NCBI RefSeq assembly: GCF_017876515.1
Contig: NZ_JAGIOC010000001.1
Coordinates: 3,286,001-3,350,000 of the forward strand
Direction of reading: 5' to 3'
DNA length: 64,000 bases
DNA from: Brachybacterium fresconis
GTDB lineage: Bacteria > Actinomycetota > Actinomycetes > Actinomycetales > Dermabacteraceae
The position numbers and the translations under genes were made by a program. Shown here piece by piece: positions 18,857 to 40,007 of the stretch; positions within the stretch are counted from its first letter, which is position 1; every line of letters starts with the position of its first letter. Below the pieces are notes generated by a model. That model did no database searches. It had not been told where the DNA came from and saw nothing but the letters and a program-made list of their open reading frames with translations.

Positions 18857-18955
18857 GCGGGCCTCCTGGTCGGGGCACGGGCGCGGCCGACGTCGGTGCC
18901 GGGCGCCGCGGTGCCGGTGTCCGAGCCACGGTATAGGGGCCCCGGGTTCGCCGCG

Positions 18956-18973
18956 ATGGGGAGAACTCCCCGT
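18956..18973. promoter_or_regulatory. ATGGGGAGNNCTCCCCAT-type palindrome, copy 1
   Basis: ATGGGGAGAACTCCCCGT (one arm mismatch). On the minus strand a TATACC hexamer starts 20 nt after it, so the palindrome would overlap or abut the -35 of the DUF4352-like gene. Copies 2 and 3 are at 36730 and 39912. The rest of the 341-bp gap (18857-19197) shows no gene. Confidence 0.6.
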
Positions 18974-19197
18974 GGGCGAGCGCCCTCGACCACTCCTGGT
19001 CAGCGAGGGTCTTAACGGCCACGCCCGCGTCCGGCCATGCCCACGCCCGCGTCCGCGCGAGCCGTGCGACGTGTCCCCCGGCCCGGATGTGGCGTGCGAT
19101 ACTCGCCGAACGGTACAGAATCGAGATGACGCTCGGCGCCGGAGAATCGATCCGCAGGACTCCCCACGCGCGAGCAGGACGACGAGGAGTCACGACC

Positions 19198-20997
19198 ATG
19201 CTGACCCGATTGCATGACGCCATGCGCCTGCGCACCTCGCCGGCGATCTTCTTCAGCTCGGCGGCGATCATCATCGCCTTCGTGATCGGCACGATCGCGT
19301 TCACAGATCCGCTGAACACAGCGGTCTCCGCGGCCTCGGACTGGCTGCTGACCAATCTCGGATGGTTCTACATCCTGGGCGTGACCGTCTTCCTGGCGTT
19401 CCTCATCATGATCGCCGTGGGACGCTTCGGGCGCGTGAAGCTGGGCCCGGACGAAGAGCCCCCGGAGCACTCGGGGGGTGCCTGGTTCGCCATGCTGTTC
19501 GCCGCCGGCATCGGCTCGATCCTCATGTTCTGGGGCGTCGCCGAACCGGTGAGCCACTTCGGCGATCCTCCGCGGGGCGAATCCTTGGGCATCGAGGCGG
19601 GCACCTGGGGTGCCGCCAAGGACGCCATGAACTTCACGTACTACCACTTCACGCTGCACACCTGGACGATCTTCACGCTGCCGGCGCTGTGCTTCGCGTA
19701 CTTCATCCACAAGCGCAACCTGCCGCCGCGGGTCAGCTCCATCTTCCAGCCCATCCTCGGCGAGGGCATCCACGGCCCGATCGGCAAGCTCATCGACGTC
19801 GTCGCGATCGTCGGCACCGTCTTCGGCATCGCCGTCTCCATCGGCCTGGGCACCCTGCAGATCAACGGCGGCCTCAACCAGCTGTTCGGGATGCCGGAGA
19901 ACGCGGGTTGGCAGCTGATCATCATCGGCGTGGTGTGCGGTCTCGCCCTCATCTCCGTCTCGCTCGGCCTCGACAAGGGCATCAAGGTCCTGTCGAACAT
20001 CAACATCGTCACGGCGATCCTGCTGCTGATCTTCGTGCTGTTCGCCGGTGGCTCCACGCTGTTCGTCCTCAAGGGCACCATCGAGTCCTTCGGCAGCTAC
20101 CTGGTGGCCCTGCCCGAGCTCGCCCTGTGGAACGACACCTTCGCGAACACCGGATGGCAGAACACCTGGACGGTCTTCTACTGGGCCTGGACCATCACCT
20201 GGTCCCCCTTCGTCGGGATCTTCATCGCCCGCATCTCCAAGGGCCGCACCATCCGCCAGTTCGTCGCCGGCGTGCTCGCCGTGCCGTCCGCGTTCTCCGT
20301 GGTCTGGTTCGGGATCTTCGGCTACTCGTCCTTCAACATCGAGCTCAACGGCGAGGGGGGACTGGTCGACACCGTGGTCGGCGACGGGGACATCCCCGGT
20401 GCCCTGTTCTCCTTCCTCAGCCACTACCCCGGGGCGTTCTTCATCTCCGTGGTGGCGATCATCCTGGTGATCATCTTCTTCGTGACCTCGGTGGACTCCG
20501 CCGCTCTGGTCACCGACTCGATGGCCAACGGGCACGAGGACTACAACCCGCTGGGACAGCGCATCTTCTGGGGGCTGGCGATCGGTGTGATCACGGCGAC
20601 GCTGCTGGTGTTCTCCGGGTCCAACGGCCTCGAAGCGCTGCAGTCGACGATCATCCTGGTCGGTCTGCCGTTCTTCATCATGGGCTTCTTCCAGATGTAC
20701 GCCCTGTACCGAGCGCTCCAGGAGGACGCCGGCGAGCTGCCGCAGATGAAGACTCGCGAATGGGCGCAGGTGCTGCCGCCGGAGGAGTACGAGCGCCGTG
20801 AGGAGGACGAGGAGTACGACACCGAGGACTACGTCGTCGAGCCGACCTTCACCACCGAGATCCCCGTCATGCGCGATCCGTACGAGGATGTCGAGGAGGC
20901 CGAGGAGAACGGCGATTCCAGCCGTGCGACCCTGCCCGCCCGGACCGGAAGCGGTCGGGCGGATCTGCCGGAGGGCGGGCGCTCGGAGTCCCGCTGA
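19198..20997 (+). CDS. BCCT family betaine/carnitine/choline transporter
   Basis: Secondary transporter of 599 residues with about 12 membrane helices, importing betaine-type osmolytes (or choline/carnitine). The BCCT signature is complete: WTVFYWAWTITWSPFVGIF followed by ARISKGRTIR, with the tryptophan box that binds quaternary ammonium. FAAGIGSILMFWGVAEP marks helix 3. The acidic cytoplasmic tail from about residue 515 is long (EDEEYDTEDY) and typical of osmosensing members. The ATG at 19198 has GAGGAG upstream. The gene stands alone, so the substrate is not fixed by context. It converges with the bile-acid-type transporter gene. Confidence 0.92.
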   Translation: MLTRLHDAMRLRTSPAIFFSSAAIIIAFVIGTIAFTDPLNTAVSAASDWLLTNLGWFYILGVTVFLAFLIMIAVGRFGRVKLGPDEEPPEHSGGAWFAMLFAAGIGSILMFWGVAEPVSHFGDPPRGESLGIEAGTWGAAKDAMNFTYYHFTLHTWTIFTLPALCFAYFIHKRNLPPRVSSIFQPILGEGIHGPIGKLIDVVAIVGTVFGIAVSIGLGTLQINGGLNQLFGMPENAGWQLIIIGVVCGLALISVSLGLDKGIKVLSNINIVTAILLLIFVLFAGGSTLFVLKGTIESFGSYLVALPELALWNDTFANTGWQNTWTVFYWAWTITWSPFVGIFIARISKGRTIRQFVAGVLAVPSAFSVVWFGIFGYSSFNIELNGEGGLVDTVVGDGDIPGALFSFLSHYPGAFFISVVAIILVIIFFVTSVDSAALVTDSMANGHEDYNPLGQRIFWGLAIGVITATLLVFSGSNGLEALQSTIILVGLPFFIMGFFQMYALYRALQEDAGELPQMKTREWAQVLPPEEYERREEDEEYDTEDYVVEPTFTTEIPVMRDPYEDVEEAEENGDSSRATLPARTGSGRADLPEGGRSESR

Positions 20998-21081
20998 CCC
21001 GGAGGCAGGCGGTGGCGTCCGACGTCATGGAGGACGACGGCCCGCCCGGACGTCGACGGACACGCCTGCTCACTCCCGGGC

Positions 21082-21134
21082 ATCCCGTCAGATGTGTCGC
21101 TCAGGGAGGGACTGAGCGACACATCTGACGGGAT
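21082..21134. repeat. 23-bp-arm perfect hairpin in a convergent gap
   Basis: Two exact 23-nt arms (outer end ATCCCGTCAGATG) surround a GGAGGGA loop. It lies between the convergent BCCT and bile-acid-type transporter genes, suggesting bidirectional termination. The sequence is unrelated to family A, but length and position are alike. Confidence 0.85.
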
Positions 21135-21230
21135 CGAACGGGGCAGCGGCGCCGACACCGAGGGCCGACACCGAGGGCCGACGATCCGAGCTGCGGATCG
21201 TCGGCCCTCCTCAGGTCGTCGGCGGAGAGA

Positions 21231-22226
21231 TCAGGTGGGATCCACCTGGTGCTTGTCGGCGCTGCGGCGGTAGTACATCGCCAGCACTGCGCCGGAGAGG
21301 TTGTGCCAGATGGAGAAGATCGCCGCGGGCAGGGCGGCGGCCGGGCTGAAGGCGGTCGCGGCGAGCGTCGCCGCCAGGCCCGAGTTCTGCATGCCGACCT
21401 CGATCGAGGTGGTCCGCGAGGCGCGCTCGCCCTGCTTCAGGACGCGGGCCAGCCAGTAGCCGGCGAGATACCCGATCGCGTTGTGGAGCACGACGGCCAG
21501 CAGCACCAGGGCGCCGGCGGAGACGATCGCCTCGGTGGAGCCGCTGACCACGGCGACCACCACCAGGGAGATGCCGACGACGCTGACCCATGGCAGCGCG
21601 GGCAGCACCCGGTCGACGAGCCGGCCGAGCAGCAGACGGACGACGATGCCGCCGATGACCGGGATCAGCACCATCTGCACGATGGACAGCGCCATGTCGC
21701 CCGCGGCGATCGGCAGGTAGGAGCCGGCCAGCCAGAGGGTCAGCAGCGGGGTGAAGATCGGGGCGAGCAGGGTGGAGATCGAGGTCATCGTGACCGACAG
21801 GGCGGTGTCCGCCCGGGCGAGGTAGGAGATGACGTTCGAGCTGGTGCCCCCGGGGGCGCAGCCGACCAGGATGACGCCGACGGCGAGCTCCGGCGGCAGC
21901 TGCAGCAGTACGGAGACGCCCAGGCCCACCAGCGGCATGAGCACGTACTGGGCGACGACGCCGATCAGCACGGGCAGCGGCCGGCGCGCGACCAGGGTGA
22001 AGTCGGGGATCGTCAGCGTCAGCCCCATCGCGAACATGATGACGCCGAGGAAGAGCGCCGTGAACGGCGCGATCGCCTGGCCGGCCGCCGGCACGAAGAA
22101 GGCGAAGGCGGCCGAGGCGAGGATCAGGGCGGGGAAGACGGTCACGGCGATGCGTGCGGACCGGTCCTCCCTCGAGCGCGTGCCTGCACTCGTCTCGGTG
22201 GTGGGTGCGGGGGCTGAGGAGGTCAT
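21231..22226 (-). CDS. bile acid:sodium symporter (BASS) family transporter
   Basis: 331-residue membrane protein with about 9-10 helices. The family signature lies in the crossed-helix region: GVILVGCAPGGTSSNVISYLA. A second motif near the end, EVGMQNSGLAATLA, matches the other sodium-site region. Bacterial BASS proteins carry pantoate, pyruvate, 2-keto acids, arsenite-like or unknown anions; nothing nearby decides. The N-terminal 25 residues are polar and cytoplasmic. The ATG at 22226 begins a normal BASS length. Alone in its transcript. Confidence 0.9.
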   Translation of the reverse strand: MTSSAPAPTTETSAGTRSREDRSARIAVTVFPALILASAAFAFFVPAAGQAIAPFTALFLGVIMFAMGLTLTIPDFTLVARRPLPVLIGVVAQYVLMPLVGLGVSVLLQLPPELAVGVILVGCAPGGTSSNVISYLARADTALSVTMTSISTLLAPIFTPLLTLWLAGSYLPIAAGDMALSIVQMVLIPVIGGIVVRLLLGRLVDRVLPALPWVSVVGISLVVVAVVSGSTEAIVSAGALVLLAVVLHNAIGYLAGYWLARVLKQGERASRTTSIEVGMQNSGLAATLAATAFSPAAALPAAIFSIWHNLSGAVLAMYYRRSADKHQVDPT

Positions 22227-22377
22227 GGCAGAAGGCTACGACCGTGTCCGCGATGCGAGAATGGCGTCTCAGAGATCGAGAGGCCGGTCGTTCCGAGGCG
22301 TGGTCCCACCCGTATCGGGCCCGCTCATCACCGTGAGCGAGTCCCGTCGCCCGTCGACCGCGCACGTGAGTCGTCGC

Positions 22378-23874
22378 TCAGCTCCGCTGTCGCGCCGGCA
22401 CCGGCCAGTCGTGCACGGGGTCGCCGGAGTCCACGCCCTTCCGGTACAGCCGGGTCATCTCCGCCAGCGCCTCCGGGCGGCCGGCCCCGCGCACCTCGAG
22501 GGAGGTGACGGTGTCGATCTGCCAGCGGGCGCCGTTGCGACCGGTGCGGGCCCGACCGGTGAGGATCTCGCCGTAGTGCTCGGCGACCTCCCTGTCGGCC
22601 CCCAGATCGCGCAGCCCCTCCACGGCCAGCGGGATCAGCTGCTCCCGCAGCAGGTCCGCCACCCGCACCCGGCCCACCCGCGGCCAGCTCACCCGCGCCT
22701 CCAGGCCCCAGCGGGCGCATTGCTGGAACGCCTCGTCGGCCTGCTCGAAGCTCATCCGCGACCACAGCGGCCGCCGCTCGTGCACGAGCGCGTGGACCAG
22801 CCCGTAGAAGAAGGCGGCATTGGCGGCCATGTCCGCGGGGGACGGGCCGGCCGGCAGCACCCGGTTCTCCAGCCGCAGGTGCGGCACGTCGGTGCCGGGA
22901 TCGTAGATCGGACGGTTCCACCGCCACACCGTGCCGTTGTGCAGCCGCAGCTCGTGCAGCCGCGGGGCGGCGCCCTCGGTCAGCAGCGGCTCCTCGGCCA
23001 TGTCGCGGGATTCGGGGATCAGCGCCGGGAACAGCCGCACGTTCTCCTCGAACAGGTCGAACATCGAGGTGATCCAGCGCTCGCCGAACCACACGCGGGG
23101 GCGCACGCCCTGGGTCGCGAGCTCGGGCGGCCGGGTGTCCAGCGCCTGGACGAAGGTGGGGATCCTGTTCTCGTGCCACAGGCGCTTGCCCAGCAGGAAC
23201 GGCGAGTTCGCCGCGAGGGCGACCTGGGGGCCCGCGATCGCCTGGGCCGCGTTCCAGGCCGGGGCGAACTGCTCGGGGGGCACCTGCAGGTGCAGCTGCA
23301 TCGAGGTGCAGGCCGATTCCGGGGCGATCGAGTCGAAGGTGGCCTCCACCCCCTTGCCCTCTCCCTCGATGCGCAGGGTGATCTCCTCGCCGCGGGCCTC
23401 CATCACGCTGTTCTCCAGCGCCTCGTAGCGGGGGCCGGGGGCCCGCCAGGCATCGCCCGTGAACAGCTCCTCGGTGACGGTGGGGAGGTGGCCGATGGGG
23501 ATCACCCGCGCGCCGCGGCGGCGGGCGGCGCGGTCGGCCCGCTCGATCTTCTCCGCCAGCTCCCGCTCGAGATCGCGCAGCCCGCGGCCGGTGGGGTGGG
23601 TGACCGGGAGGTTCACCTCGAGGTTGAAGCGGCCGATCTCGTGGACGAACTGCTCGTCGTCCAGGTCCTGCAGGAGCGTGTCGACCAGCAGCGCCGGGGC
23701 CATGTCCGCGATCTCGGCGAGGTTCATCTCCAGCTCGACGCCGACGGTGCCCTCGTCGATGAACTCGGCGGTGTCGAGGAAGGACTCGAACAGGTCGAGG
23801 TTGCGCCGCAGCTCGTGGCGATAGCGCGTGCGCTGCGAGCGTGTGTACTCGGTGGTGCCGATCTCGCGTCCCAT
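22378..23874 (-). CDS. glutamate-cysteine ligase family (GCS2) enzyme
   Basis: 498-residue ATP-grasp-like ligase of the GCS2 superfamily, which joins the gamma-carboxyl of glutamate to cysteine or another amine. Recognisable blocks are GTVGVELEMNLAEIAD (ATP/Mg glutamates, near residue 43), RFNLEVNLP, then CTSMQLHLQVP near 185 and LRLHNGTVWRWNRPIYD later. It is not the short EgtA type. Many actinobacteria without glutathione carry such a gene, and its product is unsettled. The ATG has GGAGGTCCCC upstream. It is divergent from the flavoprotein gene across a tandem-repeat-filled gap. Confidence 0.86.
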   Translation of the reverse strand: MGREIGTTEYTRSQRTRYRHELRRNLDLFESFLDTAEFIDEGTVGVELEMNLAEIADMAPALLVDTLLQDLDDEQFVHEIGRFNLEVNLPVTHPTGRGLRDLERELAEKIERADRAARRRGARVIPIGHLPTVTEELFTGDAWRAPGPRYEALENSVMEARGEEITLRIEGEGKGVEATFDSIAPESACTSMQLHLQVPPEQFAPAWNAAQAIAGPQVALAANSPFLLGKRLWHENRIPTFVQALDTRPPELATQGVRPRVWFGERWITSMFDLFEENVRLFPALIPESRDMAEEPLLTEGAAPRLHELRLHNGTVWRWNRPIYDPGTDVPHLRLENRVLPAGPSPADMAANAAFFYGLVHALVHERRPLWSRMSFEQADEAFQQCARWGLEARVSWPRVGRVRVADLLREQLIPLAVEGLRDLGADREVAEHYGEILTGRARTGRNGARWQIDTVTSLEVRGAGRPEALAEMTRLYRKGVDSGDPVHDWPVPARQRS

Positions 23875-24011
23875 GGGGACCTCCGGAGCGTGATGGGGCG
23901 TGTGCGGTTCATCCAAGCATGTGGGGCCCGGGCGGCGAAGCCGCTGCCGCAGGACGGAACAGTCGGTCGGCCCGCGCGGCTGCGCGGCATGTCGCCCGGC
24001 CACTGCCGCCG

Positions 24012-24143
24012 GGGGCGTCGTCCCGCCGCTGCCGCCCGCGCTGTCGTCCCGCTGCTGCCGCCCGCGCTGTCGTCCCGCTGCTGCCGCCCGCGCCGTCGAC
24101 CCGCTGCCGTCGGCCGCGCCGTCGTCCCGCTGCCGTCGGCCCG
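24012..24143. repeat. 26-bp tandem repeat, about five copies, in a divergent promoter gap
   Basis: A unit resembling GCGCTGTCGTCCCGCTGCTG plus six bases (CCGCCC) recurs at 24038, 24064, 24090 and 24116, with a diverged copy before. It occupies the 354-bp gap between the divergent GCS2 and flavoprotein genes, so copy number could change promoter spacing. A TAACGT at 24188 is a possible -10 for the flavoprotein gene. Confidence 0.9.
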
Positions 24144-24228
24144 TCGGCTCGAGACCTCGGTCCGTTGCCACCGGCCCCGGCCAGGCATAACGTGGCAGCA
24201 GCGACCCCGCTCGACGAAGGAGTTCCCG

Positions 24229-25440
24229 ATGTCCGACCTGACGAGCAGTTTCGACCACGTGATCGTCGGCGGCGGCGTCGCCGCCGACATGGCGGCCCGG
24301 TCGATCCACGAGAAGGCGCCGGCGGCCACGATCGCGATCCTCTCGGCCGACGCCGACGGCCCCGTCTACCGCCCCGCCCTGACCAAGGACCTGTGGCACG
24401 GCGAGGACCCCGATCCCGCCTCCCAGGACCTCCACACGGCCGAGGAGACCGGGGCCGAGCTGCGCACCGCCACCTCGGTCACCGCACTCGATCCCGCCGC
24501 CCGCACCGTCACCACCGCGGCCGGTGACACGATCGGCTACGGCACGCTGCTGCTGGCCACCGGCGCCTCCCCGCGCCGCCTCGGCGACGGCGAGGACCAG
24601 CGCGTGGCCTACCTGCGCACCGTCGCGGACTACCGCCACCTGCGGGACCTGGTCCAGGACGGCACCCGGGTCGCCGTCGTCGGCGGCGGATACCTCGGCA
24701 CCGAGATCGCCGCGGGCCTCGCCCACGCCGGCGCCGAGGTCACCCTGCACCACACGGGCCGTGTGATCCTCGAACACATGTTCCCCGACTCGATCACCTC
24801 CCACCTCACGGAGGTCTTCGAGCAGCACGGCATCACCCTGGTCGGCGGCTTCCGCCTGGCCGGCATCGACGCCGGGGAGCACCTCACCCTGACCGCCGAG
24901 GACGGCCGCAGCGCCGCCGCCGACATCGCCGTGCTCGGCCTCGGCGCTCAGCTCGCCAACGACCTCGCGAGGTCCGCGGGGCTCGAGATGGACGGGGACA
25001 GCGTCGTGGTCGACGCACAGCTGCGCACCAGCGCCGAGGGCGTCTGGGCGGCCGGGGACATCATCCGCTTCACCGACCCCCTGCTGGGGGACCGCCACGT
25101 CGAGCACGTCGACCACGCCTGGGCCTCCGGCACCACCGCCGGGACCAACATGGCCGGCGGCCAGGAGGCGTACGACTACACCCCGCTGTTCTACTCCGAC
25201 CTGTTCGACGACGGCTACGAGGCGATCGGGCACCTGGACACCTCGCTGGAGATGCTCGAGGTGTGGAGCGAGGATCGCAGCGCCGCCGTCGTCCACTACC
25301 TCGACGGTGAGCAGGTCGCCGGGATCCTGCTGTGGAACACCTGGGACTCCGTGCCGACGGCCCGCGAGGTCATGGCCGCCTCCCGAGCGGGACGCCTCCG
25401 GCGGGAGGAGCTGCCCGCGCAGATCGCCCCCGGCGGGTGA
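24229..25440 (+). CDS. NAD(P)/FAD-dependent oxidoreductase, ferredoxin reductase-like
   Basis: 403-residue flavoprotein of the pyridine nucleotide-disulfide superfamily. The FAD site is VIVGGGVAADMAAR at residues 11-24; YGTLLLATGASPRR closes the first domain; NAD(P) binds at VAVVGGGYLGTEIAAG near 149; and EGVWAAGDIIRF is the second FAD contact. There is no redox-active CxxC pair, so it is not a thioredoxin or glutathione reductase; electron transfer to a ferredoxin or rubredoxin, or AIF-like activity, fits best. AAGGAG lies before the ATG. Divergent from the GCS2 gene. Confidence 0.88.
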   Translation: MSDLTSSFDHVIVGGGVAADMAARSIHEKAPAATIAILSADADGPVYRPALTKDLWHGEDPDPASQDLHTAEETGAELRTATSVTALDPAARTVTTAAGDTIGYGTLLLATGASPRRLGDGEDQRVAYLRTVADYRHLRDLVQDGTRVAVVGGGYLGTEIAAGLAHAGAEVTLHHTGRVILEHMFPDSITSHLTEVFEQHGITLVGGFRLAGIDAGEHLTLTAEDGRSAAADIAVLGLGAQLANDLARSAGLEMDGDSVVVDAQLRTSAEGVWAAGDIIRFTDPLLGDRHVEHVDHAWASGTTAGTNMAGGQEAYDYTPLFYSDLFDDGYEAIGHLDTSLEMLEVWSEDRSAAVVHYLDGEQVAGILLWNTWDSVPTAREVMAASRAGRLRREELPAQIAPGG

Positions 25441-25569
25441 GGCGCTCGTGAGCAGCCGTGCGGGGCGGTGGGGGTGATGCGCACGGCGGGACGTCGGCCT
25501 GCACCGAATCCTGACAACTCCTTCCCAGAGCCCGACCACGACCCCCGCGGAACACCCTTCCGAGCTCTC

Positions 25570-25575
25570 TAGGCT
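25570..25575 (+). promoter_or_regulatory. -10 hexamer TAGGCT of a leaderless promoter (DUF817 gene)
   Basis: TAGGCT followed by 7 nt and the ATG at 25583; no Shine-Dalgarno. The identical hexamer precedes the DUF3870 gene. Confidence 0.5.
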
Positions 25576-25582
25576 CTCGGCC

Positions 25583-26503
25583 ATGGACCATGGTCACCGC
25601 GGTTTCACCCCGCTCGAGGAACGCCTCGACGCCTGGGCGCATCGCCGCTCGCAGGCGCTCGCGGTCGACGCCAGCCGGCTGCGCCGAGGGCTGCTGGAGT
25701 TCGCGGTGTTCACGGTGAAGCAGGCCTGGGCGTGCGTCTTCGGCGCCGCGATGCTCGTGCTGCTGGTGCTCGCCGGTCTGCTCTACCCCGACGGCGCCCT
25801 CCTGGTGCGCGGCGATGCGCTGGTGATCGCCGCCGTCACGGTGCAGGCGGCGATGCTCGTGCTGCGCCTCGAAGGCGGTCGCGAGCTGTGGGTGATCATG
25901 ATCTTCCACGTCGTGGGCACCGCGATGGAGGTGTTCAAGACGCACGTCGGCTCCTGGTCCTACGAGACCGACGGGCTGCTGCGGATCGGCGGCGTCCCGC
26001 TGTACTCCGGGTTCATGTATGCCGCCGTCGGCTCCTACATGGTGCGGGTGATGCGCCTGTTCGACCTGCGGTTCGTGCGCTATCCGCCGATCTGGACGAC
26101 GGCCCTGGTCGCGGCGGCGATCTACGCGAACTTCTTCACCCACCACTATCTGCCCGACGCCCGCTGGGTGCTGCTCCTGCTGGTGGCGTGGCTGTACGCG
26201 CCGTGCGTGATGACCTTCCGCAACCGTCGCGGCGGCGCCCGGTTCCGGATGCCGATCCTGCTCGCCTTCGTCGGCGTCGCCTTCTTCCTCTGGATCGCCG
26301 AGAACGTGGGGACCTGGGCGGGGGCCTGGATCTACCCGCACCAGGCGGCCGGCTGGCAGCTCGTGCCGCTGACGAAGTTCGTCTCCTGGCTGCTGCTGAT
26401 GATGATCTCCGTGGTGCTGGTGACCTTCGTGCACCGGCCGCGGGAGCCGGACGCGGCAAGCGCCCGGAACGAGGAGGGAGAGCGCGACCGCCTCAGGCGC
26501 TGA
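25583..26503 (+). CDS. DUF817 family membrane protein
   Basis: 306-residue integral membrane protein with about eight helices. The family block is well kept: IMIFHVVGTAMEVFKTHVGS, then LYSGFMYAAVGSYMVR and MRLFDLRFVRYP, then WIAENVGTWAGAWIYPHQ. The glutamate in TAMEVFKTH and the second WIAEN suggest buried polar residues for ligand or ion handling. Function unknown. The first 35 residues are cytoplasmic and charged. Its end overlaps the convergent MFS gene by 11 nt. Confidence 0.88.
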   Translation: MDHGHRGFTPLEERLDAWAHRRSQALAVDASRLRRGLLEFAVFTVKQAWACVFGAAMLVLLVLAGLLYPDGALLVRGDALVIAAVTVQAAMLVLRLEGGRELWVIMIFHVVGTAMEVFKTHVGSWSYETDGLLRIGGVPLYSGFMYAAVGSYMVRVMRLFDLRFVRYPPIWTTALVAAAIYANFFTHHYLPDARWVLLLLVAWLYAPCVMTFRNRRGGARFRMPILLAFVGVAFFLWIAENVGTWAGAWIYPHQAAGWQLVPLTKFVSWLLLMMISVVLVTFVHRPREPDAASARNEEGERDRLRR

Positions 26504-27830: not shown

Positions 27831-27999
27831 GATCTCTCGCTTCCTGCCGCGGCGGGCACCGGGATGCGCCGTGCACGCATCCGTCGGCACAGCGCGGCTC
27901 GGCCCGGGAACATTCCCGCCCCGGCGGCTGCGGGCGAGGGGCGTCACAGGAGCCGGGACGGCGGCGGGTCGGCGCGGGCCCGCCACGGGCCCGGGTCGA

Positions 28000-28111
28000 G
28001 TTAAAGTCACCGATCTCGTGACGCCGCTCACACGAAAGCGTCACAGCATCCTCTTCTGGTCACGGTGAGTCTAATGTCCTCGTCACCAGTAAAGGTCCTC
28101 GGGACTTTAAC
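28000..28111. promoter_or_regulatory. probable NrtR operator region (inverted GTTAAAGTC sites)
   Basis: GTTAAAGTC at 28000-28008 recurs inverted as GACTTTAAC at 28103-28111. The latter forms a quasi-palindrome with GTAAAGGTC at 28089-28097, centred just upstream of the nrtR Shine-Dalgarno, a position that would block transcription. That NrtR binds here is inferred from position and autoregulation known for the family, not from a known motif match. Confidence 0.55.
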
Positions 28112-28128
28112 AGGAGGTGTCGCCGACG

Positions 28129-28815: not shown

Positions 28816-28841
28816 CCCCACAACCCACCGGAGAGCACGCC

Positions 28842-30209: not shown

Positions 30210-30211
30210 GC

Positions 30212-32859: not shown

Positions 32860-32870
32860 AGGAGGCGCCG

Positions 32871-34004
32871 ATGCTCTACCTCGACACCGCCGCCACCACC
32901 CCGGTGCGCCGCGAAGCGCTCGAGGCCGCCTGGCCCTACCTCACCGGCACCTTCGGCAACCCCTCCAGCCACCACGCGGTGGGGGAGGCCGCCGCCGCGG
33001 GGCTGGAGGATGCCCGTCGGCGCGTGGCCGCCGTGCTCGGGGTGCGCCGCAGCGACCTCGTCTTCACCGCCGGCGGCACGGAGGCCGCGAACCTCGCGAT
33101 CAAGGGGCTCGCGCTCGCGACTCCGCGCGGAAAGCACCTGGTCACCGCCGCCACCGAGCACGAGGCCGTGCTGGAGACCGTCGACTTCCTCCGCCGCGTC
33201 CACGGCTTCGAGGTCTCCCACGTCGGGGTCGCCGCCGACGGGACCATCACCGCCGAGGCCCTGCGTGCCGCGCTGCGGAAGGACACCACTCTGGTCTCCC
33301 TCGCGCTGGCGAACAACGAGATCGGCACGATCACGGACGTGCGGGCGCTCGCCGAGGTCGCCCACGAGGTCGGAGCCCTGGTCCACACCGATGCCGTCCA
33401 GGCCGCCGGGTGGCTGGACCTGCGCGGGCTCGGCGTCGATGCGCTGACCCTCTCGGGCCACAAGCTCGGCGCCCCCAAGGGGATCGGCCTGGCCATGATC
33501 CGCGGACGCCTGCCGGTGGAGCCGCTGGTCCACGGCGGCGGGCAGGAGAACGGCCGCCGATCCGGCACCGAGAACGTCGCCTTCGCCGTGGCCCTCGCGA
33601 CCGCGCTCGAGCTCGCCGAGACCGAGCGGGAGCAGAAAGCGGCGCGCCTGGCCCCGCTGCGCGACCATTTCCTCGAGCGCGTGCTCACCGCGCGCGAGGG
33701 CGTGCTGCGGACCGGGGCGGATCCCCGCCATGCGGGGGCGCGGCTGCCGGGCCACGCATCCTTCTGCGTGTCCGGTCGCAGCGGGGAGTCGATCCTGCTG
33801 GACCTCGCCGAGCGCGGCGTGATCGCCTCCAGCGGCTCGGCCTGCGCCGCCGGCAGCGACGAGCCCTCCCACGTGCTCACGGCTCTGGGCATCCCCCGCG
33901 AGGTCGCCCAGACCGCGGTGCGCATCACCCTGCCCGCCGACGTCACGGCCGCACAGCTCGCGGCGGCCACCTCCGCGCTCGAGGAGGTCCTCGCCCGCCC
34001 GTGA
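32871..34004 (+). CDS. cysteine desulfurase (NifS/IscS-like) of the NAD operon
   Basis: PLP enzyme of 377 residues that takes sulfur from cysteine. Motifs: YLDTAATTPV at the start, TAGGTEAANLAIKG, the PLP lysine in TLSGHKLGAPKG near 200, and the catalytic cysteine in SSGSACAAGSDEPS near 327. The position right after nadC (11 nt, with AAGGAGG before the ATG) is seen in other bacteria and suggests it builds or repairs the NadA Fe-S cluster. It may also feed SufE (4449) or tRNA thiolation. It is the last gene of the nrtR operon. Confidence 0.93.
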   Translation: MLYLDTAATTPVRREALEAAWPYLTGTFGNPSSHHAVGEAAAAGLEDARRRVAAVLGVRRSDLVFTAGGTEAANLAIKGLALATPRGKHLVTAATEHEAVLETVDFLRRVHGFEVSHVGVAADGTITAEALRAALRKDTTLVSLALANNEIGTITDVRALAEVAHEVGALVHTDAVQAAGWLDLRGLGVDALTLSGHKLGAPKGIGLAMIRGRLPVEPLVHGGGQENGRRSGTENVAFAVALATALELAETEREQKAARLAPLRDHFLERVLTAREGVLRTGADPRHAGARLPGHASFCVSGRSGESILLDLAERGVIASSGSACAAGSDEPSHVLTALGIPREVAQTAVRITLPADVTAAQLAAATSALEEVLARP

Positions 34005-34076
34005 ACCGGCGACCTCCGCCGGCGCGATGGCGGATGGCGGCATGTGAATCGTTCCGGTCCGGTGCCTCTGTACCCG

Positions 34077-34082
34077 TAGACT
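34077..34082 (+). promoter_or_regulatory. -10 hexamer TAGACT of a leaderless promoter (nucleotidyltransferase gene)
   Basis: TAGACT, 6 nt, then GTG at 34089; no Shine-Dalgarno. The predicted transcription start is the G of the start codon. Confidence 0.55.
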
Positions 34083-34088
34083 CCCGGC

Positions 34089-34958
34089 GTGACCGACCAG
34101 AGCTCCCCGCCCTCCGCCGATGCCCCCGCCGACACCGCTGCTGCCGCCCCTGCCGTCACCCGTGCCGTGATCCTCGCCCGCGGACTCGGCACCCGCATGC
34201 GCACGGCCGACGAGAGCGCCGCGCTCGACGAGAAGCAGGCCGCCGTCGCTGCCAGCGGCGTCAAAGCCCTCATCGACGTCGGCCGCCCCTTCCTCGACTA
34301 CGTCGTCTCCGTGCTCGCGGACGTCGGCGTCACCGAGATCTGCCTGGTCATCGGCCCCGAGCACGAGGTGCTGCGCGAGTACGCCGCGCGCGTCAGCGGC
34401 GGCCGCGTCACCGTCAGCACGGCCGTGCAGGCCGAGCCCCGGGGCACTGCGGACGCCGTCGCCGCCGCCCGCGACTTCGCCGGCGACCAGCGGGTGATCG
34501 TGCTGAACTCGGACAACTACTACCCGCGCGAGGCCCTCGCCGCGCTCGCCGCCGCCCCGGGCAGCGCCCTGGTCGGCTTCGACCGCGAGGCGATGGTGAC
34601 GGGCTCCAACATCCCCGCCGAGCGGATCCGCGCCTTCGCCCTGGTCGCCGCCGATGAACAGGGCCGCCTCCAGGACATCGTCGAGAAGCCCGACGAGCAG
34701 ACTCTCGCCGCCTACGGCGAGCAGGCCCCGGTCTCGATGAACGCCTGGCTGTTCACCCCCGCGATCTTCGACGCCTGCGCCCGCATCGAGCCGTCCGTGC
34801 GCGGCGAGCTCGAGATCATCGACGCCGTGCGGCTCCTGGTCGCCGAGGGCGAGGCCGTCACCGTCGTCCCCGCCGCTGTCGGGGTGCTGGACATGTCCTC
34901 CCGCGGCGACGTCGCCGGCGTGCAAGAGGCTCTGGCCGGGATCGAGGTGCGCCTGTGA
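34089..34958 (+). CDS. sugar nucleotidyltransferase
   Basis: 289-residue protein of the NTP-transferase family (RmlA/GlmU-N fold), which couples a sugar-1-phosphate to an NTP. The nucleotide-binding signature AVILARGLGTRMR is at about residues 25-38, a slight variant of the usual A-A-G-x-G-T-R-M. Later VIVLNSDNYYP carries the Mg-binding aspartate and LQDIVEKPDEQ the conserved EKP. The first 22 residues are a polar extension. It overlaps the GHMP kinase gene by 4 nt (GTGA), so kinase and transferase probably act in sequence: sugar to sugar-1-phosphate to NDP-sugar. The sugar is unknown. Confidence 0.87.
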   Translation: MTDQSSPPSADAPADTAAAAPAVTRAVILARGLGTRMRTADESAALDEKQAAVAASGVKALIDVGRPFLDYVVSVLADVGVTEICLVIGPEHEVLREYAARVSGGRVTVSTAVQAEPRGTADAVAAARDFAGDQRVIVLNSDNYYPREALAALAAAPGSALVGFDREAMVTGSNIPAERIRAFALVAADEQGRLQDIVEKPDEQTLAAYGEQAPVSMNAWLFTPAIFDACARIEPSVRGELEIIDAVRLLVAEGEAVTVVPAAVGVLDMSSRGDVAGVQEALAGIEVRL

Positions 34959-36211
34959 GCGACGCCCTCGAGGAGCTCACCGCCGGAGCCCCCGGCACCT
35001 CCACCTGCTGGTTCGTGCCCGGACGCATCGAGGTCCTCGGCAAGCACACCGACTACGCGGGCGGCCGCTCCCTGCTGGCCGCCGTCGACACCGGCCACAC
35101 GATCACCGCGAGCGCCCGGCAGGACCGCGTGCTGCGCGCCCGCTCCGAAGGCGCCGACGGGACCGTCATGATCGACCTGGACCGTCCCGAGGAGTCCGCC
35201 GCCGACGAGACCGAGGGGCACTGGGGCGGGTACGTGCGCACCGTCGCCGCCCGCCTGGAGAAGAACTTCCCCGGACAGCTCCGCGGCGCCGACGTCACCG
35301 TCACCTCCACCCTCCCGCTGGCGGCCGGGATGTCCAGCTCCTCAGCGCTGGTCGTCGGCCTCGCCCTGGCGCTGATCGACCTCTCCGGCCTCGCCGCCGA
35401 TCCCGCCTTCACCCGCGAGATCACCACCATCGAGAAGCTCGGCGAGTACTGCGGCACCATCGAGAACGGGCAGAGCTTCGGGTCCCTGGCCGGGGAGCGC
35501 GGGGTGGGCACCTTCGGCGGCAGCGAGGACCACACCGCGGTGCTGTGCGGCGTGCCCGACGCCCTCGTGCAGTACTCCTTCTGCCCCGTGCGCCACGAGC
35601 GCACCGTCGGCCTCGGTGACGAGCTCGTCCTGGTGGTCGCCGTCAGCGGGGTCGAGGCCGCCAAGACCGGCGCCGCTCGCGAGGCGTACAACCGCGTCTC
35701 GCGCGCGGTCATCGAGCTGGTGCTGCGCTGGCAGGAGGCCACCGGCGGCCGGGAGGAGACCCTCGCCGACGCGCTCGCGAGCGCGACGGACGCCGCGGCG
35801 CGCCTGCGCGAGCTCGCCGCCGCCGACGACTACCTCGTCGGCCGCCTCGAGCAGTTCCTCACCGAATCCGAGCAGATCATCCCCGCCGCGTCGACCGCGC
35901 TGGAGACGGGCGATCTCGAGGAGTTCGGGCGCCTCGTCGACCTCTCCCAGACCGGCGCCGAGACCGGGCTGCGCAACCAGGTCCCCGAGACCATCGCCCT
36001 GCAGCGCCTCGCCCGCGAGCACGGCGCCCACGCCGCGAGCGCCTTCGGAGCCGGCTTCGGCGGCAGCGTCTGGGCCCTCGTCCCGGCCGACGGGGCCGAG
36101 CGCTTCGCCGCCGAGTGGCTGGAGGCCTACCGCGCCGCCCACCCCGAGCGCTGCGACGCCACCACCGCGATCACCCGCCCCGGCGGAGCCGCCCGGCGCG
36201 TGCGCCGCTGA
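34955..36211 (+). CDS. GHMP kinase, galactokinase-like
   Basis: 418-residue sugar kinase of the GHMP superfamily. The galactokinase-type N-terminal signature is altered: PGRIEVLGKHTDYAGGRSLL in place of GRVNLIGEHTDYNGG. The ATP loop TLPLAAGMSSSSALVVG near residue 125 is clear, as is the third motif GAGFGGSVWALVP near the end. FGGSEDHTAVLCG takes the place of the galactokinase substrate loop. The glutamate-to-lysine change in the first signature argues against true galactose as substrate. GTG start, coupled to the nucleotidyltransferase gene. Confidence 0.87.
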   Translation: MSDALEELTAGAPGTSTCWFVPGRIEVLGKHTDYAGGRSLLAAVDTGHTITASARQDRVLRARSEGADGTVMIDLDRPEESAADETEGHWGGYVRTVAARLEKNFPGQLRGADVTVTSTLPLAAGMSSSSALVVGLALALIDLSGLAADPAFTREITTIEKLGEYCGTIENGQSFGSLAGERGVGTFGGSEDHTAVLCGVPDALVQYSFCPVRHERTVGLGDELVLVVAVSGVEAAKTGAAREAYNRVSRAVIELVLRWQEATGGREETLADALASATDAAARLRELAAADDYLVGRLEQFLTESEQIIPAASTALETGDLEEFGRLVDLSQTGAETGLRNQVPETIALQRLAREHGAHAASAFGAGFGGSVWALVPADGAERFAAEWLEAYRAAHPERCDATTAITRPGGAARRVRR

Positions 36212-36275
36212 GATACGGCGGCGTCGGACGGCCAGGGGTCGGCATGCGCCGTCCGCCCCGGTCGCCCGTGCAACC

Positions 36276-36671
36276 TCATACCCGCTGCCGGGCCCGAAAC
36301 TCCCGCCAGTACCGGCGGCGCCGCCGCACCACCTCCCGCGCCCAGCGCGGATAGAGGACCAGCGGCAGCGGGATCACCGCGAGCACGAAATACAGCACCG
36401 GGATCAGCAGCACGATCAGCACCCCGACCGCGAGCCCCCGCAGCACCGGGAAGCCCTCGAGGACGAGGATCGCCGCGACGTCGATCAGGGCGAGCCCGAT
36501 CGCAGGAGCCCCGAGGACGACGATCCGCTCCAGCATCCAGTTCTCCGCCGGCGGCGGAGCGATCCAGTGACGAGCCGGGGGAGACCCGCCGTGACGTGAC
36601 CAGAGGGTGTAGGCCAGCAGCAGCAGCCCGACGACCACGAGGACCAGAGGGAGGAGAGCTCGTTGCGACAC
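36276..36671 (-). CDS. small membrane protein of unknown function
   Basis: 131 residues with three hydrophobic stretches: 5-24 (ALLPLVLVVVGLLLLAYTLW), 49-70 (RIVVLGAPAIGLALIDVAAI) and 76-105. The C-terminus is strongly basic (VVRRRRRYWREFRARQR), cytoplasmic by the positive-inside rule. The GTG at 36671 lacks a Shine-Dalgarno but follows GACAAT by 6 nt, so it is likely leaderless. It is divergent from the WXG100 gene; the palindrome at 36730 lies in the shared gap. Not recognised as a named family. Confidence 0.72.
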   Translation of the reverse strand: MSQRALLPLVLVVVGLLLLAYTLWSRHGGSPPARHWIAPPPAENWMLERIVVLGAPAIGLALIDVAAILVLEGFPVLRGLAVGVLIVLLIPVLYFVLAVIPLPLVLYPRWAREVVRRRRRYWREFRARQRV

Positions 36672-36677
36672 GCCAAG

Positions 36678-36683
36678 ATTGTC
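36678..36683 (-). promoter_or_regulatory. -10 hexamer GACAAT of a leaderless promoter (membrane protein gene)
   Basis: On the minus strand GACAAT, 6 nt, then the GTG at 36671. Confidence 0.5.
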
Positions 36684-36729
36684 GCAGGCAGACGGCGCGC
36701 TGTCCTGTTCCCGGCAGGTCGCGATGTGG

Positions 36730-36747
36730 ATGGGGAGTACTCCCCAT
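36730..36747. promoter_or_regulatory. ATGGGGAGNNCTCCCCAT palindrome, copy 2
   Basis: Perfect 18-bp palindrome ATGGGGAGTACTCCCCAT in the 142-bp divergent gap between a membrane protein gene and the WXG100 gene at 36814. The -10 on the plus side is not clear; AGAGTC about 21 nt downstream is the best candidate. Confidence 0.7.
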
Positions 36748-36813
36748 TGCGCGAGCTGATCCCGTCGGAGAGTCTGATCCGGTTCGGTATGACGGCATGG
36801 GGGGACTGCAGAC

Positions 36814-37650
36814 GTGAACTTCTACGGGATGGATACGGTTCAGGGACAGGAATTCGCCTCGACGCTGACCGAACGCCGGAGCGCCCTGGAGGACAACACA
36901 GCCCGGCTCTCGTCCGTCGTGGCGCGGATCGACACCTTCTGGCGGGGCCAGGACGCCGAGTCCTTCCGCACGGAATGGGAGGGGCTGCGCACCGGTCAGA
37001 TCTCCACGACTCTCGAGCGGTTCGCGGACCTTGCCGAGGAACTGAGGAAGCACGTCGATGAGCAGGACGGCGCCTCGGAGGTCACGGGAGGCGACGGCGG
37101 ATTCGACCTGGGAGACATCTTCCGCGGCGGGGACATGCCGGGGTGGCGGGACATGCTCCCCAACGACTGGGAAGACGTCGTCGGACTCGGCCTCGGGGGG
37201 ATCCTCGACGGGCTCGACGGCGCCTACGGCGCACTCTCCAAGTACCTCGGCAATCCCAAGATGATCGCCTCGCTGTTCATGGTCGGCGGCGACGAGATGG
37301 CGGACGCCGCTCAGGCGGCGTCGCGCAGCGCGGGCGGGCTGTCCAGGGTCTTCGGGGCCGCCGGAGCCGTCGTCTCGGGCGGCTTCGCCGCGTGGGACCG
37401 CTGGGAGGCGGATGCGAGCGACCCCAGCCTCGGCACCGGTGAACGTATGGGGCGAGCAACCATCGACGGTGTGGCCAACGCCGGTGGCGGTGCCCTCGTC
37501 GGGTGGGGCGGAGCGGCACTGGGCGCTTCCGTGGGGACCATGATCTTCCCCGGTGTCGGTACGGTCATCGGCGGCGCGATCGGGGGGATCGCCGGAGGGC
37601 TCGCCGGGGGGACAGCGGGCAACTTCCTCGCGGACTGGGCTCTTGGCTGA
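36814..37650 (+). CDS. WXG100-like protein with glycine-zipper C-terminus
   Basis: 278 residues. Residues 1-90 are a WXG100-type helical hairpin: FWRGQDAESFRTEW has the turn motif W43-R-G45, and the start NFYGMDT resembles the WXG100 protein at 40008. WXG100 proteins are type VII secretion substrates. Residues 110-180 are a linker and amphipathic helices, and 215-278 form a glycine-zipper segment (ALVGWGGAALGASVG, then TVIGGAIGGIAGGLAGG) able to insert into membranes. This resembles longer WXG/LXG effectors rather than a 100-residue EsxA. GTG start with a weak GGGGA upstream. First gene of a unit with 37720 and 38208. Confidence 0.78.
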   Translation: MNFYGMDTVQGQEFASTLTERRSALEDNTARLSSVVARIDTFWRGQDAESFRTEWEGLRTGQISTTLERFADLAEELRKHVDEQDGASEVTGGDGGFDLGDIFRGGDMPGWRDMLPNDWEDVVGLGLGGILDGLDGAYGALSKYLGNPKMIASLFMVGGDEMADAAQAASRSAGGLSRVFGAAGAVVSGGFAAWDRWEADASDPSLGTGERMGRATIDGVANAGGGALVGWGGAALGASVGTMIFPGVGTVIGGAIGGIAGGLAGGTAGNFLADWALG

Positions 37651-37719
37651 CGGAACCCGCAGACCTCGTACCATCCGATATGGACGCAGAACCCATATAC
37701 AGCGCGAGCAGGAGGACCG

Positions 37720-38208
37720 ATGATCCGAGAGGCAGTGGCCGCGGCGACCGTCCCGGGGGTCGTCGTCTCCCTCGAGAGACCGGACTCCTGGCTGGTCGAG
37801 CGCGGAGAGACGACTCCGGCCTTCCTCGCGCTGCAACCGGAGAACGAAGCGGGACCGTTCCGCGACAACCTCCTCGTCGCGATCGAGAAGCCCGCCACCG
37901 AACAGCCTCTGGACCTCGAGACGGCACAGTCGATGTCTCGTGCCCAGGCCCTCGCGACGGTCCCTGATTACCACCTGATCGATGATCGGCCCCTTGAGGT
38001 CGGAGGGGTCGACGGCTGGTTCCGGGCGGCGGTGTACTCCTCCGAGTCGATGACCACGGTGACCGTCCGCCAACTGTTCGCGGTCCACGGCGGTGTGCTC
38101 GTCACCATCACCCTGACCAGCTTCCCCTTCCGGGACCCGGAGTCATCGGAGCTGTTCGAGCGCGTCGCCGCCACCTGCTCGATCACGACCGAAGGGGCCG
38201 AGGCCTGA
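37720..38208 (+). CDS. PsbP/LpqN-like (DUF1795-type) protein
   Basis: 162 residues, no signal peptide. The pattern PDSWLVERGE, LVAIEKPATEQPLDLE, VPDYHLIDDRPLEVGGVDGW and VTITLTSFPFRDPESSELFE fits the PsbP-like fold of LpqN/LpqT and DcrB-type proteins, here in a cytoplasmic form. AGGAGG lies 6 nt before the ATG. Its stop shares a base with the next ATG (TGATG). Position between a WXG100 gene and an EspG-like gene suggests a chaperone or accessory role in type VII export; this rests on context only. Confidence 0.68.
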   Translation: MIREAVAAATVPGVVVSLERPDSWLVERGETTPAFLALQPENEAGPFRDNLLVAIEKPATEQPLDLETAQSMSRAQALATVPDYHLIDDRPLEVGGVDGWFRAAVYSSESMTTVTVRQLFAVHGGVLVTITLTSFPFRDPESSELFERVAATCSITTEGAEA

Positions 38209-38942
38209 TGCTCACGTACGACTCCGCGACGGCCACGTTCCGTGGGTCCCCGAGCGAGATCGATGAACTGGCCCGCCAGCTGACCGTCGACGACGCCGTC
38301 TCCGTCCTTGCCCGTCTACGGGACGACGGGGCCGAGATGCCTGAGGGCACCGGGGACGATCTACTCGCGTCCATCGGGGTGACCCTCTCCTCCTCCCTGT
38401 TCACGGTGGAGCTCACCGTGTCCGGTCCGAGCGGCCACCAGCGGCACGTGATCGACGCCGGGCAGAACGCCGTGGGGGTGCGTCTCAGCCCGCTCACCGA
38501 TGACCTCTCGGAGCTGAACGGCTTCCCCGTCGTGAATCTGCCGGGTGGTATGACTCGGCTCGTGAGGTTCCTGCCGGGGATGCCCCCCGCCGCAGACGCC
38601 GAAGCCATTCGGGTGCGCACGTCGGCCGTCGTCGACCTCGGCGCGCCGGAGACCTCTGTCCGTCGCAGCGCATGGGTCGAGGTGCAGCCGCACCTTGCGG
38701 AAGCCGGGTATCAGGCCGACGGGGCGAGCTCCTGGCAGCTCACTCGCTCTCGCGCAGAGTGGATCTCCATGGATGGCGAGGAATCGTCGAATCTCGCTGT
38801 CTACCTTCGCGTCGCCACGCAATACTTCGTGGTGGTCGAAACGGACGACGGTGTCGATCTGGTGCCGGTTCCGTCGGTCACGGCCTGGGAGACCATGATG
38901 CAGGTGCTCCCGGGAGCCAACGAGGTCGGGCGGCCGAGCTGA
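38208..38942 (+). CDS. EspG-like candidate secretion chaperone (tentative)
   Basis: 244 residues, cytoplasmic, mixed alpha/beta. Strand pattern and features such as LFTVELTVSGPSGHQRHVI, GVRLSPLTDDLSELNGFPVV and a late YLRVATQYFVVVETDD with a final LPGANE remind me of ESX secretion-associated EspG proteins, which bind WXG/PE-PPE substrates. No single diagnostic motif proves it. It is translationally coupled to the PsbP-like gene (1-nt overlap). If not EspG-like, it is an unrecognised protein of a WXG100 operon. Confidence 0.6.
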   Translation: MLTYDSATATFRGSPSEIDELARQLTVDDAVSVLARLRDDGAEMPEGTGDDLLASIGVTLSSSLFTVELTVSGPSGHQRHVIDAGQNAVGVRLSPLTDDLSELNGFPVVNLPGGMTRLVRFLPGMPPAADAEAIRVRTSAVVDLGAPETSVRRSAWVEVQPHLAEAGYQADGASSWQLTRSRAEWISMDGEESSNLAVYLRVATQYFVVVETDDGVDLVPVPSVTAWETMMQVLPGANEVGRPS

Positions 38943-38978
38943 GCGGCCGCGCCGCTGGGGCTGTGTGATCAGCTGTGC

Positions 38979-38984
38979 CACGAT
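38979..38984 (+). promoter_or_regulatory. -10 hexamer CACGAT of a leaderless promoter (SUKH-like gene)
   Basis: CACGAT, 6 nt, then GTG at 38991; same hexamer and spacing as for the DUF3817 gene. Confidence 0.45.
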
Positions 38985-38990
38985 GAGCGG

Positions 38991-39830
38991 GTGACCACGC
39001 CGATGAACTCTTCCCTGCCCTGGCCGACCGAGGCCCCCGCGATCCCGCTGCTGTCCGTACGACCGGTCCTGGACCGCATCGCCTCCCTGGCGCGCACCCA
39101 CGAGCAGGACGTGACGCTCGTTCCCGGCTTCGCGACGAACGAGGAGGAGCTCGCGGCGGATCCGCCGCCCGCGCTCGAGCAGATCCTCGACGAGCTCGGC
39201 GGCATCGAGCTGTGCGGCCACCCCGTGCTGAACCTGCTGATCGAGGACCGCACCGACGTCGGCCCCTACACCCTGCTCGGATCGGCCACGACCTTCTACC
39301 CCCTGTACGAGACCCCGGATGCCGCCGTGATCCTCACGATCGACGACGACGGCGCCCCGGGCGCGATCTACGGCATCGGCGAGGACCTCGCCCTGCAGCT
39401 GGCCGCCGCAGATCTGCCCTCCTACCTCGAGCGCTTCGCCGACGCCCTCGAGGCGAGCCTGGCGGCGCTCGGCGAAGCCCCCGAGGAGGGGGAGGCCCGC
39501 ACCGAGCTCGCCGAGCAGCTCATGGACCAGCACCTGTTCGCCGCCTTCCTCGGAGAGGCCGACGATGACGAGGACGACGCCGGGGTGAGTCCGTATGCCG
39601 CGGACTCCGGTGCCGTCACCTCCGCAGAGACGACGACGGTGCCGGTGCAGAGCCCGTCGGCCGCCGGGCCGGGCGACCTGCCCGAGGGGACGATCGCCGT
39701 GGCGGATCTGCGCCAGGCTCCGCTCGGGGCCCGCGTCGAGCTGATCGATGCCGACGTGCCGGGGGATCCGCTGGATCTCCACGTCGCCTGGCGCGAGCGC
39801 GGTCGCGTCGTGGCGCTGCTGACCGCCTGA
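38991..39830 (+). CDS. SUKH/SMI1-KNR4-like protein
   Basis: 279 residues. The N-terminal 165 residues follow the SUKH pattern: PALEQILDELGGIELCG, then TFYPLYETPDAAVILTIDDD, GAPGAIYGIGEDLALQLA and LPSYLERFADALEASL, i.e. the GG turn, the central D-x-D-G strand pair and the final helix. The SUKH superfamily contains many immunity proteins against polymorphic toxins. A Glu/Asp/Ala-rich linker (165-225) leads to a small C-terminal domain of about 50 residues (IAVADLRQAPLGARVELID). It lies between two WXG100 genes, which fits an effector/immunity locus. The fold call is by eye. Confidence 0.6.
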   Translation: MTTPMNSSLPWPTEAPAIPLLSVRPVLDRIASLARTHEQDVTLVPGFATNEEELAADPPPALEQILDELGGIELCGHPVLNLLIEDRTDVGPYTLLGSATTFYPLYETPDAAVILTIDDDGAPGAIYGIGEDLALQLAAADLPSYLERFADALEASLAALGEAPEEGEARTELAEQLMDQHLFAAFLGEADDDEDDAGVSPYAADSGAVTSAETTTVPVQSPSAAGPGDLPEGTIAVADLRQAPLGARVELIDADVPGDPLDLHVAWRERGRVVALLTA

Positions 39831-39911
39831 CCCCGTCCCTCCCGTGCCTGCCCGGCGCGCTCCGCCCGCCGGCCTGATCCCTGCGCGCCGCCCGTCGCCC
39901 CAGCGCACCCC

Positions 39912-39929
39912 ATGGGGAGTCCTCCCCAT
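39912..39929. promoter_or_regulatory. ATGGGGAGNNCTCCCCAT palindrome, copy 3
   Basis: ATGGGGAGTCCTCCCCAT, extended by one more C-G pair to CATGGGGAG/CTCCCCATG. TACGGT at 39952-39957 starts 23 nt after it (22-nt gap), close to the 20-nt gap of copy 1, so it probably sits at the -35 of the WXG100 gene at 40008. Confidence 0.7.
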
Positions 39930-40007
39930 GGTTCGTTCCCGGCGGCCCGCCTACGGTGAGAGCGTCACAGGGGAACGGGTGCGACGGCGAGGGGAGCACG
40001 GCGGTCG

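Follow-up and report, generated by a model that had tools for sequence, protein, structure and literature searches.

A palindrome with near-constant spacing to the -10 element, a probable activator site, marks promoters of type VII secretion genes in Brachybacterium and other Actinomycetota

A 64,000-nucleotide stretch of the Brachybacterium fresconis genome (contig NZ_JAGIOC010000001.1, positions 3,286,001 to 3,350,000), referred to here as the window, contains three copies of an 18-bp palindrome that belongs to a promoter class of type VII secretion system (T7SS) genes, characterized by a nearly constant gap between the palindrome, a putative operator, and the -10 element. We consider it probable that the palindrome, bound by a protein dimer, acts as a class II activator site of these promoters. 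All three copies reported in a first-pass annotation were recovered at the positions listed in Table 1, two of them exact and one with a single mismatch, compared to a chance expectation for the window of 0.36 at up to 3 mismatches; none of 100 shuffles of the window gave three matches.

In the whole genome, allowing up to 2 mismatches, 23 sites were found, of which 6 were exact, 8 had a single mismatch and 9 had two, whereas a reversed-pattern control gave 0 matches, and so the genome scan that the annotation had called for placed the motif above chance. The intergenic placement noted for the window copies also held for the genome: 22 of the 23 sites lay between genes, although 87.5% of the surrounding DNA examined was coding according to gene calls made with our own codon-usage script and no standard gene finder. 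The refined consensus was ATGGGGAS-NN-STCCCCAT. A relaxed pattern at 2 mismatches was no better than its control (74 versus 75 matches), and weak sites were therefore left unused.

The position of a -10 element relative to the palindrome was evaluated by looking for TANNNT at offsets 0 to 49 from the 18-mer on both strands of every site, an arm being called gene-facing if a gene start lay within 260 nt. It was found that TANNNT began exactly 22 nt from the palindrome in 13 of 28 gene-facing arms of the B. fresconis genome, with single cases at 23, 24 and 36, whereas none of the 18 arms lacking such a gene had it there. In genomes of three other Brachybacterium species (G002, G003 and G008), the exact spacing was present on the gene-facing arm of 24 of 34 sites. 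When arms were pooled over the genus, excluding sites near locus ends and identical arms, 42 of 148 had TANNNT at offset 22, 9 had it one base and 4 two bases further, and the mean for offsets more than two bases away from 22 was 0.22 per offset. The same pooling for other families gave 18 of 100 arms at offset 22 and 8 one base further, with a mean of 0.31 per distant offset. Because the peak at 22 is accompanied by some sites one or two bases further, the distance is nearly, not wholly, fixed.

Alignment on the -10 hexamer showed that the T ending the palindrome (frequency 0.86-1.0) and a G two bases on (0.90-0.94) were conserved, the other spacer bases being nearly free. This T and G are the first and third bases of a -35 hexamer (TNG) with a 17-nt spacer, and TNG is present at the would-be -35 of all three window copies. 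The first-pass annotation had placed a -10 20-22 nt downstream of copies 1 and 3, with the palindrome at the -35. The -10 hexamers are indeed there, at exactly 22 nt and, for copy 1, on the minus strand; the palindrome shares one base with the weak -35 and has its midpoint near -43.5 if the -10 spans -12 to -7. Therefore, an activator site is a likelier description than a -35 element.

The strongest evidence for the promoter class comes from a composite pattern (palindrome, TNG, 20 nt and TANNNT) scanned over 84,980 species genomes, because this pattern is blind to gene content. At least 116 stretches (118 sites) were obtained, a sample in unknown order. Among the matches listed, a WXG100-type gene directly followed 71 of the 118 sites, as detected with an iterated HMM that was seeded with three WXG100 proteins of the B. 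fresconis genome and iterated at E 1e-3 on a small set. Many of the other 47 listed sites preceded T7SS machinery or partner genes by eye, and others had no clear tie; 4 of the 118 had no usable open reading frame (ORF), and for at least one other (L219) the chosen reading frame was wrong. Protein clustering also showed that 38 of the 116 listed loci encode what by eye is an EccC-type ATPase. By record title, 115 of the 116 listed stretches were from Actinomycetota and one was from Lachnospiraceae; the genera included Brachybacterium, Microbacterium, Agreia, Agromyces, Herbiconiux, Janibacter, Terrabacter, Knoellia, Arthrobacter relatives, Sanguibacter, Schaalia, Actinomyces, Gordonia, Nocardioides and others. 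At two loci (L169 247-2417 and L176 46-2216), the operon behind the palindrome promoter encodes a protein of 261-272 aa and a WXG protein of 451-461 aa.

Within the genus, 37 of 38 genomes had 2-17 exact matches of TGGGGASNNSTCCCCA, compared to one match in one of nine genomes from other genera of the family; the reversed control gave one match in each of 3 of the 47 family genomes. The palindrome promoter was retained before related genes whose proteins are 38-47% identical (LppM-like, DUF4352 and L024-type targets), and copy 1 of the window is found again in G002 and G003, flanked there by the same divergent gene pair. Order-wide, a match was present in 126 of 396 genomes, which represent 45 of 110 genera. 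Clusters of matches in G118, G170, G116, G054, G253, G308, G230, G341 and G387 precede WXG100-type and T7SS genes, and several clusters in other families have TAGCNT at, or one base from, offset 22. The predicted conservation upstream of related WXG100 genes was thus borne out in the genus and extends to T7SS genes in other families, with one genome of the genus (G007) as an exception.

WXG100-type genes are faced by 9 of the 23 sites in B. fresconis: the window has two such sites and the T7SS locus three, and four lie elsewhere at genes for longer WXG proteins (L018, L029, L032 and L033). The T7SS-locus sites adjoin the gene for a 1487-aa EccC/EssC-type ATPase, whose NCBIfam matches are under the curated cut-offs. 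Four sites face lipoprotein-like genes (LppM-like at L023; L016, L024 and L025 by eye), five face a gene for a PH-domain or other small membrane protein (L020, L027, L028, L030 and L031), one faces the DUF4352 gene of the window and one the gene for a 169-aa protein (L022). Of the remaining three, the L017 site is inside a gene and those at L021 and L026 have no gene ahead of them within 260 nt. The type VII link of the regulon suggested by the first-pass annotation is supported, but the regulon is not small, comprising about 20 promoters that join lipoprotein, PH-domain and DUF4352 genes to T7SS genes. This suggests that certain lipoproteins and PH-domain and DUF4352 membrane proteins work together with the T7SS in these bacteria.

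By eye, the T7SS locus contains FHA, kinase, PP2C, transglutaminase-like, MoxR and DUF58-like genes, and no transcription factor gene was seen in it. A WXG100 gene pair is tandemly duplicated in this locus (L019 5716-6347 and 6695-7326, G000:C1) with identical predicted proteins, and each copy of the pair has its own palindrome promoter. Integrase and phage-like genes (by eye) directly adjoin the locus (L078 16333 to L019 5366, G000:C1 about 1288300-1297400).

Table 1. Palindrome copies of the window, their -10 hexamers and the genes that they face
Feature	Position	Strand	Remarks
Palindrome copy 1	18956..18973		ATGGGGAGAACTCCCCGT, 1 mismatch, ends CCCCGT
-10 hexamer TACCGT of copy 1	18928..18933	-	22 nt past the palindrome, towards the DUF4352 gene
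Target: membrane-anchored protein with PT repeat and DUF4352 domain, 218 aa	18200..18856	-	Pfam PF11611, 6.2e-06, 27 bits, cut-off 25.9
Palindrome copy 2	36730..36747		ATGGGGAGTACTCCCCAT, exact
-10-like hexamer GAGTCT of copy 2	36770..36775	+	At the 22-nt offset; A2 and T6 present, without T1
Target: WXG100-type protein with glycine-rich C-terminus, 278 aa	36814..37650	+	PF06013, 8.3e-06, 26.4 bits, just under cut-off 27.3
Candidate operon partner, 162 aa	37720..38208	+	Weak DcrB match under cut-off; downstream, same strand
Two more co-directional genes, possible operon members, 244 and 279 aa	38208..39830	+	No Pfam match
Palindrome copy 3	39912..39929		ATGGGGAGTCCTCCCCAT, exact
-10 hexamer TACGGT of copy 3	39952..39957	+	22 nt past the palindrome
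Target: short WXG100-type protein, 108 aa	40008..40334	+	W-x-G present; no Pfam match; homology to G008 target

As shown in Table 1, the target genes named in the first-pass annotation, two WXG100 genes and a DUF4352-like gene, were assigned with differing firmness: the DUF4352 domain has a Pfam match, one WXG100 protein falls just under the cut-off, and the other is recognized by its W-x-G and by homology. Over 91 aa, the latter shares 60% identity with a WXG-type target of 372 aa that has the same promoter in G008; the long C-terminus of this best counterpart is absent from the 108-aa product. Elsewhere in the window, CACTGG is repeated nine and a half times (98% match) at 43245-43301, near the starts of divergent genes at 42504-43148 (minus strand) and about 43219-43662 (plus strand, HxlR-like by eye), and slipped-strand variation is possible at this repeat.

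Several observations weigh against our reading of the palindrome. Genome G007, a genus member that has a T7SS (EccC 44% identical), contains 0 sites, and the best match within 190 nt before its WXG100 genes, and also before EccC, has 3 mismatches. G033 (EccC 60% identical) has 2 sites and merely a degraded half-site before one WXG100 gene. G125 has 20 matches, but of 13 fetched only 3 had the exact spacing on the gene-facing arm, and several face secreted proteins or no called gene; one fetched site adjoins a T7SS FHA/PP2C cluster. In B. fresconis itself, 15 of the 28 gene-facing arms lack TANNNT at 22, some of them being the reverse arm between two divergent genes. The sites pooled above, among them many from a single genus, share common descent and should not be counted as independent. 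Finally, the reversed control matched about 25 of the 396 genomes order-wide (at most two matches per genome, counted by eye), and many single matches outside the genus may therefore be due to chance. The two matches in G325 were set aside as a false lead; they lie inside two near-identical coding stretches.

The geometry points to activation. A near-constant distance from operator to promoter over many promoters is typical of activators; the Vibrio lux box has an equal distance from its centre to the -10, and at class II sites of Crp this distance is some 2 bp shorter. Class II activator sites are centred near -41.5 to -43.5, a constant distance upstream of the -10, and go with a poor -35; the palindrome agrees with this, as the 22-nt offset holds for the majority of promoters with a TANNNT and the -35 is reduced to TNG. 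In the mechanism that we propose, a protein dimer would bind ATGGGGAS-NN-STCCCCAT centred near -43.5, touch the weak -35 (TNG) and recruit RNA polymerase, presumably with the housekeeping sigma factor, to the TANNNT -10 that starts 22 nt downstream. No sigma-70 consensus promoter was found at window positions 36500-40200.

Alternatively, the palindrome could be a repressor operator that blocks the -35 region of T7SS promoters until a signal relieves it. A dimer bound where the palindrome touches the -35 position could exclude polymerase, and repressors commonly have palindromic operators. Nevertheless, the location of repressor sites is usually less uniform and their promoters tend to be good ones, whereas the spacing to the -10 is nearly constant here over many promoters and several families and TNG is all that is conserved of a poor -35, so we regard repression as improbable. 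There is next to no chance that the palindromes are intrinsic terminators or repeats without a regulatory role: the GC-rich 8-bp stem could fold, and a terminator-like CTTTTTT follows two of seven fetched matches in genus g53 (L086 6575 and L087 11306), but no terminator-like site was found at window positions 36500-40200, the predicted folding of the DNA strand at copy 2 is no stronger than that of shuffled sequences (z -0.67), and the constant distance to the -10 and the association with genes are unexpected for terminators. Two further g53 matches (L086 and L087) lie near flagellar and sigma-factor-like genes without the spacing.

As to what would bind the proposed activator site, we lean somewhat towards one unlinked master activator that, via this single 18-bp palindrome 22 nt from the -10, governs the T7SS machinery and exported substrates across the Micrococcales and into other Actinomycetota, where a few matches at T7SS genes were found in Gordonia and Nocardioides. 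Protein clusters drawn from at least three loci (812 proteins from the 116 listed loci) were families of the T7SS type, and by eye no recurring regulator gene beside the sites was seen among them; there was no convincing candidate among the DosR-like, Crp, locus-linked, Gordonia LuxR-type and A2 proteins examined. We tentatively suggest that the activator may be a response regulator of the NarL/FixJ (LuxR-type) class, by analogy of the promoter geometry and in parallel with a known T7SS activator, DegU, which is of the NarL/LuxR type.

Among individual candidates, a VraR/NarL-like response regulator (orthogroup A2) that is paired with a membrane histidine kinase fares best, although we find it doubtful. 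A2 was the only LuxR-type group joined by reciprocal best hits across all six site-bearing genomes compared; this linkage used 52 of 58 LuxR loci (6 gave no protein), its G022-G215 link goes to a paralog, and three of its genomes (G215, G364 and G356) are counted as site-bearing on 2 matches each. The closest relative of A2 in the PDB is VraR (8.9e-62), and an A2 match at E 2.4e-90 or better was present in 22 of 23 site-rich genomes outside the genus. The Streptomyces MacR consensus, TGAGTACNNGTACTCA, has the same 7-2-7 plan as the motif (half-site TGAGTAC versus TGGGGAS here), and the targets of MacR are membrane proteins and lipoproteins. However, A2 is near-universal in the order (379 of 396 genomes at E 1e-50, including 14 genomes of genus g42 without matches), and its presence profile therefore says little; G007 has it despite 0 sites. 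The A2 matches are weaker in G022 (10 sites, 8.7e-81) and G017 (11 sites, 7.0e-78), the copy in G022 runs over two reading frames, with the break in its receiver domain, and G083, with 5 matches, has a weak A2 match only (1.6e-51). Furthermore, in G364, G215, G356 and G125, the A2 gene adjoins an ABC transporter that it may serve. Orthologs of A2, and those of the DosR-like protein considered below, were judged by E-value alone, and the order-wide table counts were made by eye.

We give very little credence to a DosR/DevR-like response regulator of these genomes as the activator, and as a common regulator it was rejected on the order-wide ortholog profile compared to that of the matches. The mycobacterial DosR/DevR box, TTSGGGACTWWAGTCCCSAA, likewise consists of inverted half-sites of the GGGAC type, in common with TGGGGAS, but the motif GGGGAS-NN-STCCCC has 2 bp less between its half-sites than this 20-bp box (GGGACT-WW-AGTCCC). 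DosR-like orthologs, present in G022, G118 and G125, have an invariant EKTVKN in the recognition helix, and the gene adjoins one for a GAF-type histidine kinase in G022 and G007 (by eye). However, of the 23 genomes from other genera that have at least 3 matches, just 9 were found to carry a strong ortholog (E below 1e-80), and in two of those 9 (G129 and G343) the matches do not resemble T7SS promoters. Conversely, a strong ortholog is present in all 14 genomes of genus g42, none of which has a match, and G007 retains the gene with 0 sites.

Other candidates were rejected. For the Crp family, G387 (6 matches) lacks a strong HTH_Crp_2 match (best 1.5e-6), whereas the site-free G007, G038 and G048 have one, and a Crp-like gene near the G170 T7SS cluster is unsupported as the regulator by this profile; the Crp/GlxR site (TGTGA-N6-TCACA) does not fit the half-site TGGGGA. 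The motif centre varies, unlike the fixed central CG of a LacI/CebR-type operator (TGGGAGCGCTCCCA), and the half-sites are inverted, unlike the direct repeats of TGGGGA-like units in the MraZ box. In Gordonia alkanivorans (L196 255-846), a short LuxR-type gene of the T7SS cluster lies directly after a palindrome promoter, by T7SS-type FHA and PP2C genes. This protein was rejected as the common regulator because at E 1e-10 none of the 9 Brachybacterium-genus genomes searched had a match, and only 8 of the 53 searched overall did; counterparts occur in genomes of family f19 with sites (G287, G364, G215, G387, G395 and G305) and without sites (G111 and G150).

Because the signature lies in the promoter and needs no prior gene knowledge to indicate T7SS substrates and partners, it offers a route to effectors. 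If our reading is correct, the palindrome promoter alone could find T7SS substrates in unannotated genomes, and the question of what turns the T7SS on becomes directly testable through the palindrome-binding protein. In the literature searched, which was mostly open-access, no paper on the motif was found, and the open-access part yielded nothing on T7SS control in Actinomycetota beyond the mycobacteria; mycobacterial and Firmicute regulators are known.

The mycobacterial ESX-1 regulators EspM, WhiB6 and EspR resemble the case described here in being transcription factors for T7SS genes in Actinomycetota; they are different proteins, and nothing in the source excerpts links them to the palindrome or to a fixed 22-nt spacing. 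MacR of Streptomyces coelicolor is a NarL-type regulator of membrane protein and lipoprotein genes (PMC10345050, PMC9739842), and the passages on it in these reviews name no T7SS targets. The shared site plan implies no orthology to MacR. In Bacillus subtilis, the yuk/Ess T7SS depends on the phosphorylated response regulator DegU~P (PMC3701619). That system differs in concerning one locus in a Firmicute, and the abstract names no shared palindrome or regulon of many promoters; the likeness is that a T7SS depends on a two-component response regulator, which is proposed here only as a candidate class.

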